Assembly: GCF_029265695.1 (NCBI RefSeq)
Contig: NZ_JAJUHW010000010.1
Coordinates: forward strand, 16,308 to 80,307
DNA from: Gracilinema caldarium
GTDB lineage: Bacteria; Spirochaetota; Spirochaetia; Treponematales; Breznakiellaceae
Direction of reading: 5' to 3'
Length of the DNA: 64,000 nt
The notes below the pieces were generated by a model, which was given only the letters and a program-made list of their open reading frames with translations, was not told the origin of the DNA and did no database searches. Positions 59,351 through 60,743 of this stretch are shown piece by piece (the first letter of the stretch is position 1; each line of letters begins with the position of its first letter). The position numbers were made by a program, and so were the translations under genes.

Positions 59351-59458
59351 CCACTACAGCATAAACGAGGATGTAAAGATTGTCACTTAAGAAAATATCA
59401 AGCCATTGGCTGCCCTTGACAGAGCATCCTGTTTTACGATATTGTTAATCACCTTTCT

Positions 59459-59545
59459 GGAGCGGTGTCCGAGTGGTTGAAGGAGGCGGTCTTGAAAACC
59501 GTTGAGCCTGCGAAGGTTCCGGGGGTTCGAATCCCCCCTGCTCCG
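59459..59545 (+). tRNA. tRNA-Ser(UGA)
   Basis: Acceptor GGAGCGG/CTGCTCC, anticodon loop CTTGAAA (TGA), long variable arm, GGTTCGAATCCC T-arm. Confidence 0.95.
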
Positions 59546-59648
59546 GTGATCCTTGCGACTGCCGGCTTTTCTACCAATGGTTTTCGAGCTTTAGCAACTC
59601 GAATAGGTGGGGGATGAGAAAAATAAGGCGTATTCAGCGCCTTATAAA

Positions 59649-59763
59649 CCTTCGCCGACCGGAGGGAGGAAAAGGTGGTAGGAAGCCACCGACAGAAGGT
59701 GTAGGTGGGTTGGAAGGAGCATACAGGATGTATGCGACTGTAAACCGAATCCCCCCTGCTCCG
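59649..59763 (+). repeat. tRNA-Ser-associated structured repeat, copy 1
   Basis: CCTTCGCCGACC...GGTGGTAGGAAGCCACC...GCATACAGGATGTATGC...ACCGAATCCCCCCTGCTCCG; last 18 nt duplicate the 3' end of the preceding tRNA. Confidence 0.88.
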
Positions 59764-59783
59764 TTGTCCAGAACAGGTCCCTT

Positions 59784-59871
59784 GGAGCGGTGCGAGAGTG
59801 GCCGAATCGGGCTCCCTGCTAAGGAGTTGAACCCCTAAAGGGTTCCGGGGGTTCGAATCCCCCCTGCTCCG
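59784..59871 (+). tRNA. tRNA-Ser(GCU)
   Basis: GGAGCGG/CTGCTCC acceptor, anticodon loop CTGCTAA (GCT), long variable arm. Confidence 0.94.
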
Positions 59872-59952
59872 AATAATGTGGCGTATAGCCATTTTCTGTT
59901 CCGTTGAACAAGCGGGCTTCAAAAACCACCTTCATGGGGATGAGAACTGAAG

Positions 59953-60067
59953 CCTTCGCCGACCAACGGGAGGAAAAGGCAGCAGGATGCTGCTGGCAGA
60001 AGGCGGAGGCGGGTTGGAAGGCCCGTACAGGATGTACGAGGCTGGAGACCGAATCCCCCCTGCTCCG
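59953..60067 (+). repeat. tRNA-Ser-associated structured repeat, copy 2
   Basis: CCTTCGCCGACC...GGCAGCAGGATGCTGCT...CGTACAGGATGTACG...ACCGAATCCCCCCTGCTCCG; the duplicated tRNA end continues ~22 nt further (to ~60089). Confidence 0.88.
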
Positions 60068-60130
60068 AATAATGTGGCGTACAGCCATTACGACAGAGCG
60101 GGCAGATGGTTAATCCCTCTGTCACAAAAT

Positions 60131-60204
60131 GAGGCTGTAGCTCAGCTGGATAGAGCTTCAGATTGCGGATCTGAAGGTCGGAGGTTCGAATCCTCTCAGC
60201 CTCA
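60131..60204 (+). tRNA. tRNA-Arg(GCG)
   Basis: Acceptor GAGGCTG/CAGCCTC, anticodon stem TCAGA-TTGCGGA-TCTGA (GCG at 60165-60167), D-loop AGCTGGATA with A20. Confidence 0.92.
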
Positions 60205-60212
60205 GGCTTATT

Positions 60213-60299
60213 GGAGAGATGCGAGAGCGGTTGAATCGGACGGTCTCGAAAACCGTTGAACTCGTAAGGGTTCCGAGGGTTCGAATCCCTCTCTCTCCG
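60213..60299 (+). tRNA. tRNA-Ser(CGA)
   Basis: GGAGAGA/TCTCTCC acceptor, anticodon loop CTCGAAA (CGA), long variable arm. Confidence 0.94.
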
Positions 60300-60368
60300 C
60301 TGAAGTTCCCGTTTCGAGGAAATCGAGGGATTCGAACAAATAAGGCGAAATGAAATGAGCCTTATAAG

Positions 60369-60483
60369 CCCTCGCCGACCAACGGGAGGAAAAGGCGGCA
60401 GGAAGCCGCCGACAGAAGGCGGAGACGGGTCGGAAGGAATGTACAGGATGTACATGACTGGAGACCGAATCCCTCTCTCTCCG
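60369..60483 (+). repeat. tRNA-Ser-associated structured repeat, copy 3
   Basis: CCCTCGCCGACC...GGCGGCAGGAAGCCGCC...ATGTACAGGATGTACAT...ACCGAATCCCTCTCTCTCCG; tail duplicates the 3' end of tRNA-Ser(CGA) (21 nt incl. CTG). Confidence 0.88.
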
Positions 60484-60537
60484 CTGGGATGTACTGGCGA
60501 CGGTGCATCAATGTAAAAAAATGAGGACTAATAATTT

Positions 60538-60625
60538 GGAGAGATGACCGAGCGGCCGAAGGTGCACGATTGGAAGTCGTGTGTACCCCTAAAGGGTACC
60601 GAGGGTTCAAATCCCTCTCTCTCCG
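60538..60625 (+). tRNA. tRNA-Ser(GGA)
   Basis: GGAGAGA/TCTCTCC acceptor, anticodon stem CACGA-TTGGAAG-TCGTG (GGA), long variable arm. Confidence 0.94.
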
Positions 60626-60646
60626 TATTCCCCGTCATCAGGAATC

Positions 60647-60743
60647 ATGCGAAAAAGCACTACCCAACCCCGCCAGGTCCGGAAGGAAGCAACGGTAAGT
60701 AGCTGCTTTTTGCGCCGTGACCATCCTGGTGGCGGGGTTTTTT
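60647..60743 (+). ncRNA. ffs: Bacterial small signal recognition particle RNA (4.5S)
   Basis: CCCCGCCAGGTCCGGAAGGAAGCAACGG...GTGACCATCCTGGTGGCGGGG + T8; conserved AGGTCCGGAAGGAAGCA domain IV. Exact 5' end uncertain. Confidence 0.9.

Follow-up and report, generated by a model that had tools for sequence, protein, structure and literature searches.

Repeats ending in a copy of the local tRNA tail behind serine tRNA genes of Gracilinema caldarium: a widespread and apparently mobile spirochaete family

Why should three serine tRNA genes of one cluster each be followed by a short repeat that ends in a copy of that same tRNA's 3' end? The question is raised by a stretch of 64,000 nucleotides from Gracilinema caldarium, the whole of which is referred to as the window. 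We report that the repeats, described in an earlier note on this DNA, are real, not due to chance and part of something larger than first described; added here are an antisense copy of the tRNA T-arm, a fourth copy in the genome, the spread of the family and an anatomical match to the tRNA-linked repeats (TLRs) of Escherichia coli. We consider it probable, with some reserve, that the three repeats are of the tRNA-linked kind in a spirochaete form, i.e. mobile elements at T-loops with locally matched arms that are transcribed together with their host tRNAs; CsrA binding is a weaker part of this reading.

The tRNA cluster and its three units

The cluster has the order Ser(UGA)-Ser(GCU)-Arg(GCG)-Ser(CGA)-Ser(GGA)-SRP RNA. 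Using ARAGORN, the plus-strand serine tRNA genes hosting units 1, 2 and 3 were placed at 59458-59546 (UGA), 59783-59872 (GCU) and 60213-60300 (CGA), and tRNA-Arg(GCG) at 60130-60205. As the earlier note had also seen, tRNA-Ser(GGA) (60537-60626, plus strand; ARAGORN) is without the repeat. The small SRP RNA comes directly 3' of the cluster (60636-60734). A plus-strand promoter-like site ahead of the cluster (59416-59445; TTGACA, a spacing of 16/18, and GATATT/TATTGT) was detected by pattern scan, and its TTGACA is kept in a congener, genome G001. The first convincing plus-strand intrinsic terminator in a pattern scan is at the end of the SRP RNA (60723-60738), and within the tRNA cluster the terminator scan gave only a weak 5-pair match, at 59878. 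The elements thus lie within a single tRNA-SRP transcription unit, and co-transcription with the tRNAs, followed by excision, is to be expected. Downstream of the SRP RNA there is a dnaX-like coding stretch, recognised from its sequence only.

All features of the three units are on the plus strand. Unit 1 corresponds to a 218-bp segment (first tail, spacer, antisense copy and core; 59528-59745) as defined by alignment with the empty site in G001, its left and right limits being ambiguous by the 18-bp repeat. It includes a degenerate antisense copy of the T-arm (GGGGGATGAGAAA, 59609-59621, identified by sequence; compare GGATGAGAA of the E. coli RtT repeats), an extra hairpin specific to the lineage of this genome (AATAAGGCG/CGCCTTAT, 59623-59646) and a structured core (59648-59745) with helices P1 (59648-53/59695-700), P2 (GGTGGT-AGGAA-GCCACC, 59674-90) and P4 (GCATAC-AGGAT-GTATGC, 59719-35), after which the tail copy CGAATCCCCCCTGCTCCG follows (59746-59763). 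In unit 2 the duplicated segment comprises 40 bp of tail and trailer, reaching 22 bp beyond the tRNA, with the first copy at 59854-59893 and the second, which has one mismatch, at 60050-60089; between them are a degenerate antisense T-arm copy (GGGGATGAGAAC, 59936-59947, again by sequence) and the structured core (59951-60049). Unit 3 has a first tail consisting of the tRNA 3' end plus 3 bp (60282-60302), a clear antisense copy (GAGGGATTCGAAC, 60325-60337) detected as inverted repeats, an extra hairpin of the same own-genome lineage (60339-60366), the structured core (60367-60465) and the tail copy CGAATCCCTCTCTCTCCGCTG (60466-60486).

With the T-loop taken as the starting point, unit lengths are 218, 196 and 184 bp; as first noted, the units are tiny and without a recombinase open reading frame (ORF). 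The original description also holds in that the three cores form one repeat family (74-80% identity over 128 nt), that the tail duplicates begin at 59528/59746, 59854/60050 and 60282/60466, and that each core carries the tail of its own upstream tRNA. The cores fold better than shuffled sequences (z between -2.9 and -4.6). The fourth copy is found on another contig of this genome (G000 contig C23:9959-10112; L004, L034), where a second tRNA-Ser(CGA) precedes it. It adjoins a second Ser(CGA)-Ser(GGA) pair at the contig end and is diverged (about 80%) from unit 3; this pair represents a second tRNA cluster or a strain mixture in the assembly.

Distribution, linkage to tRNA and tmRNA genes, and mobility

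We aligned 30 copies and derived a covariance model from them. Within the order it has matches in 255 of 394 genomes, representing 69 of 92 genera, and in a phylum-wide set in 47 of 296; under full scoring, six selected genomes have 4-18 copies each. Treponema and other spirochaetes were among the matches listed in a pattern scan of named genomes. The covariance-model matches listed also include Candidatus Omnitrophota, a Margulisbacteria MAG and groundwater Deltaproteobacteria MAGs; single MAGs might be contaminated, and seven Omnitrophota records agree with each other. The Omnitrophota copies stand behind tRNAs with an encoded CCA, and the CCA is copied too. No exact copy of the motif was found in IMG/VR viral contigs, and literature searches returned no description of the spirochaete family.

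The model includes the closing stem and so favours copies of the tRNA type, which makes a scan with the internal motif only, blind to the tail, the fairer test of linkage. Hits close to contig ends aside, there are 101 motif hits, and for 92 of these a tRNA or tmRNA gene lies at most 400 nt upstream on the same strand; the hosts comprise 29 tRNA species in addition to nine tmRNA cases. By comparison, one of 20 set-aside loci, probable chance matches chosen by phylum and a missing model match (four of the 20 were not scored by the model), has a tRNA or tmRNA gene upstream. Cores at other tRNA 3' ends with matching tails, as the earlier note had expected, are present in relatives. Six motif hits have neither tRNA nor repeat, and copies without a recognised tRNA in G385, G207 and G060 stand behind tRNA 3' halves or tmRNA. 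Elements behind such halves (anticodon region onward) occur at L079, L085, L086, L097 and L107; the halves are probably the footprints of ordinary islands, which would have split the tRNA and removed the tail together with the element.

Two genomes, G033 and G005, have dispersed intergenic cores without tRNA tails inside a larger GC-rich repeat (L252, L254, L255, L258-L260), and these copies are a MITE-like offshoot. In the Margulisbacteria MAG the cores (L178:137-383 and 1457-1567) are not tRNA-linked, and two are in tandem. A core found mostly away from tRNAs had been named in advance as speaking against the insertion reading; this is the situation in G033, G005 and Margulisbacteria, and it does not apply in general.

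The predicted empty site was found in G001, which shares the tRNA cluster. Its Ser(UGA) site equals that of the window minus exactly 218 bp, the gap falling in the T-loop after GGGGGTT and before CGAATCC, and the downstream flank is that of the window; with two genomes compared, insertion in one or precise loss in the other both fit. G001 likewise lacks a unit at its Ser(GCU) site, and the Ser(CGA) site is filled in both genomes. For 18 of 31 comparable copies the core is nearer to one at the tRNA of another amino acid in the same genome, and for the other 13 it is nearer to one at the same tRNA in another genome, a split which indicates both long residence (Ser, Gln, Pro) and hopping.

These data bear on the alternative that the repeat is an old host RNA gene that does not move, its tails and antisense arms being matched by local tandem duplication and gene conversion. 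Such a history would explain why copies linked to Ser, Gln and Pro(UGG) tRNAs have their nearest relatives at the corresponding tRNA of other genera, and it would accommodate tandem arrays and recombinational changes in copy number of the kind seen at E. coli proK. It is difficult to reconcile with the empty site in G001, with hosts spanning 29 tRNA species and tmRNA, and with similar cores at different tRNAs in one genome (the Met- and Leu-linked cores of G001 are 89% alike), and we regard it as unlikely. Mobility of this widespread family is well supported.

Matched arms, fold and possible routes of spread

DNA searches in relatives revealed a constant order: first tRNA tail, spacer, antisense T-arm copy, core and second tail. 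The spacer is the trailer, often with an intrinsic terminator, such that in many loci a terminator lies between tRNA and element. The core, approximately 95 nt and folded, is followed by a copy of the upstream tRNA 3' end beginning in the T-loop, while just 5' of it nearly every copy has an antisense version of the same T-arm (GGGGATTCGAA type; 9-20 nt), which may extend into the acceptor strand and is complementary to both tails. Decayed and truncated copies occur, and a fitting antisense stretch is still present in several copies that have lost the 3' half.

Both arms fit the local host. For 102 copies and 1000 shuffles of the tRNAs, the mean agreement with the own tRNA is 16.75 of 18 positions for the tail copy (shuffled 11.6, maximum 12.4) and 8.46 of 9 for the antisense stretch (shuffled 6.81, maximum 7.18). 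The gap between own and shuffled tRNAs is larger once Ser tRNAs are excluded: for the 46 non-Ser copies the values are 16.3 against 9.8 (maximum 10.9) for the tail and 8.3 of 9 against 5.8 (maximum 6.5) for the antisense stretch.

Near-fresh copies give some insight into how the arrangement might arise. In L039, L059 and L060 the duplicated segment abuts the antisense stretch and 37-43 bp are identical or nearly so; L039 and L060 also show microhomology, a few bases long, where the antisense stretch begins to adjoin this segment. The duplication in fresh copies extends a variable 20-60 bp past the tRNA, through trailer and terminator. In the tandem arrays L106 and L107 the terminator is kept in each unit, although the stem sequences can differ. 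A tRNA-Pro(GGG) gene is followed by five near-identical tandem units in which trailer and terminator are repeated (G575:C1:3216617-3217496; L232).

The earlier note had read the arrangement as the att-like architecture left by site-specific insertion. The start in the T-loop and the empty site agree with this, whereas the variable duplication past the tRNA, the antisense copy of the target and a covarying, RNA-like fold do not; its two other readings, a non-autonomous mini-element and a tRNA-derived RNA unit, are both compatible with our results. In its explicit form the att-like reading has tiny integrative elements, or footprints and satellites of an integrase, inserted by a tyrosine recombinase at the T-loop, the tail being a displaced attachment half-site. 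tRNA 3' ends are classic integration sites, filled and empty sites exist, and 3'-half footprints of ordinary islands adjoin some copies. Still, an inserted circle would import a foreign tail, yet the tails fit the host tRNA, the repeat runs on variably through trailers and terminators, the fold covaries, and no ORF-bearing form appeared among the regions opened; we hold this explanation to be quite unlikely.

Retro-type insertion, a special case of the mobile reading, would have the element RNA copied into a nick in the T-loop by target priming, with a variable duplication and an antisense end formed by snap-back. It is a possibility, albeit not a probable one: the T-loop start and variable end of the duplication, the junction microhomology in L039 and L060 and the structured, RNA-like core all agree with it, and against it reverse transcriptase domains (Pfam RVT_1) gave no match in the carriers G001, G060, G018, G025, G042, G118 and G073, although the enzyme could have acted in trans and since been lost. 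The carriers lacking RVT_1 include two complete genomes with 7 and 18 copies (the latter being G060).

Several candidates for helpers, cargo or known relatives were discarded. The presence of a resident reverse transcriptase does not track the element. A small reverse transcriptase gene lies approximately 560 bp from a tRNA-Met element in G248 (G248:C1:2608445-2609705; L102), and this proximity is probably a coincidence. A resident Y1 transposase fares no better, Y1_Tnp being absent in several carriers and abundant in the non-carriers G026 and G013. No core with an ORF, i.e. an autonomous form, was found in 20 further regions opened, and 5'-half motifs without a listed covariance-model match were mostly complete copies, the rest being chance. 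Between near-identical copies in G248 (L088/L093) there is a lipoprotein-like ORF plus unrelated sequence, which is not cargo-like. The cores match no Rfam family, and RF00391 (RtT) gave no hit in the window at E<=1 or in nine loci at E<=0.1. The idea of an internal guide as in group I introns, with AACC-GGTT pairing to the 5' exon, was dismissed since pairing beyond two A residues ignores the tRNA.

For the mobile reading that we prefer, the steps may be as follows. A small non-coding element would be placed at the T-loop of a tRNA gene, and the 3' segment of the target (the tail, often with trailer and terminator) is doubled, giving the observed order of tRNA 5' part, segment, antisense, core and segment; because the segment is present twice, the tRNA stays intact. 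The tail copy would arise with this target duplication, and the antisense arm could be generated or repaired with the tail as template inside the hairpin, i.e. by polymerase template switching. The folded core has two arms, P1-P2 and P3-P4; the antisense arm, itself observed in the sequence, is predicted to close the fold by pairing with the second tail. In this manner the family would spread to new tRNA and tmRNA genes. After transcription the second tail might be recognised by the tRNA's own 3'-end processing, as has been proposed for the E. coli RrB repeat.

The 30-copy alignment supports five helices, P0 (antisense with second tail) and P1 to P4: paired cells make up 94.9%, double changes occur in 23 of 30 pairs, and none of 500 shuffles reaches any of the covariation measures. 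Pairing in P0 (90%) is less perfect than in the other helices. Among 117 unique copies there are 3156 Watson-Crick, 55 G-U and 27 A-C cells, i.e. G-U cells are only twice as common as A-C. The scarcity of wobbles fits either strong selection or upkeep of stems by template switching, a process described for RNA hairpins (PMC8794818), and hence the covariation supports a conserved fold and does not of itself indicate an RNA function.

The same scarcity, together with structure being more conserved than sequence, would be expected if the fold mattered as DNA, as in attC- or CTX-like single-stranded hairpin recombination substrates whose closing stem recreates a duplex target site. The purine-rich conservation of one strand and the GGA loops look like RNA, the Y1 transposase family does not track the element, and rRNA-linked TLRs in E. 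coli are transcribed and processed (PMC8144298), so that we judge a DNA hairpin substrate very unlikely. When tRNA and element are folded together by free energy (71 cases), the antisense stretch pairs with the tail of the tRNA itself in 46 and with the second tail in 4; co-transcribed elements could therefore disturb tRNA folding unless the tRNA folds first. This prediction and the complementarity to both tails would suit a switch in which the antisense chooses between the tails and the state of the core, set by ligand or protein, controls tRNA maturation. That terminators often separate tRNA and element, that the hosts are unrelated tRNAs and tmRNA, and that decayed and truncated copies are tolerated make such a switch highly improbable.

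As to a role of the RNA, a GGA is present in the P2 loop of 104 of 106 copies, mostly as CANGGANG, and in the P4 loop of 72, all of which have it in both loops; about a third of the P4 loops are without GGA. CANGGANG is the preferred hairpin of CsrA/Rsm proteins, and each of the nine genomes tested has a CsrA gene. To judge from its GGA hairpin loops and the CsrA of the hosts, the element RNA may bind CsrA. An RNA function of the element is likely; CsrA binding is the less secure of these steps.

Comparison with tRNA-linked repeats and other known systems

The closest known kind is the TLRs of E. coli, including RtT/rttR (RF00391) at tyrT-tyrV and rrA, rrB and rrF of the rRNA operons. In the literature 22 TLRs are reported for K-12 at ten loci; they have been described since 1978 and have no known function. 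To our knowledge they have been described only from E. coli and its relatives. Shared features are the location behind a stable-RNA gene, the occurrence in tandem units, which may stand between two terminators, and a terminal stretch, 18-19 bp in E. coli, that repeats the 3' end of the gene upstream without change. E. coli repeats also have an antisense arm that suits the local tRNA: the 178-bp tyrT-tyrV repeats (RtT) end in the tRNA-Tyr tail and carry the antisense GGGGAAGGAT, the proK element has the Pro tail with the Pro antisense GAGGAT, and the element in the Arg cluster has GGGAGGAT with ATCCTCCC. The GGATGAGAA edge is shared by window units 1 and 2 and the E. coli Tyr and Pro repeats. 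We found no mention of this arm in the openly accessible TLR literature consulted. The copy number at proK varies across E. coli strains (L284-L288), being two, one, or none with a truncated remnant, and the difference is a precise 168 bp; in two strains transposase genes of IS621 and IS1397 are close behind the remnant. The rrB repeat (rrnB T1-T2; L298:307-426) carries GCGGATTTGAAC, which resembles an antisense tRNA T-arm, while its tail copies 5S rRNA; a trace of an earlier tRNA host is possible.

There are also differences. The spirochaete family has another core sequence without an Rfam match, its host range (29 tRNA species and tmRNA) is much wider, 5S rRNA hosts were not seen, and the tail copy starts mostly at C56 compared to near 58-59 in E. 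coli. Homology of the core sequences is only hinted at: blastn between spirochaete and E. coli repeats gave no hit, and the hits of the spirochaete model are weak, namely RrB as the top hit in the rrnB region, in register (11.9 bits; E 0.01 in 801 bp), the two TLRs as best hits in the Arg region (in register, 10.9 and 5.8 bits) and the Pro TLR in register (3.8 bits), with the Tyr repeats out of register.

A wider reading, which we offer as tentative and falling somewhat short of probable, is a cross-phylum class of mobile non-coding elements, E. coli TLRs included, that would parasitise the T-loops of tRNA and tmRNA genes and rewrite both edges at each landing, the sense tail by target duplication and the antisense arm by hairpin-templated copying; such an element would be a self-retargeting RNA with no protein of its own. 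Since 1978 neither a function nor an origin of TLRs has found acceptance. The set from spirochaetes and further phyla is a second one, much larger and more diverse; it shows tail copying to be general and adds a diagnostic antisense arm, tmRNA hosts, empty and filled sites and a fold supported by covariation. Both movement and an RNA role thereby become testable, also in E. coli K-12. In addition, tail copies and antisense arms confuse the annotation of tRNA genes and attachment sites.

With CsrB/RsmY-type RNAs the elements have in common GGA in CANGGANG-type hairpin loops and a host that encodes CsrA; they differ in that a unit has only one or two of these hairpins and that GGA can be missing from one. 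GGA loops are also found in E. coli RrB, which binds CsrA through its GGA motifs (PMC8144298). With integrative elements and genomic islands they share the duplication from T-loop to 3' end and the intact tRNA, and they differ from these in unit size (<300 bp), in having no integrase or cargo, in a duplication that runs into the trailer, and in the antisense copy and covarying fold. REP- and MITE-type repeats are likewise short, non-coding, multi-copy and rich in hairpins, and the copies in G033 and G005 are dispersed as in these; unlike them, the spirochaete family in most genomes targets tRNA and tmRNA genes, in one orientation and with target-specific arms. The three repeats of the window are best classed, on the basis of anatomy, with the tRNA-linked repeats, of which they would be a spirochaete variant.
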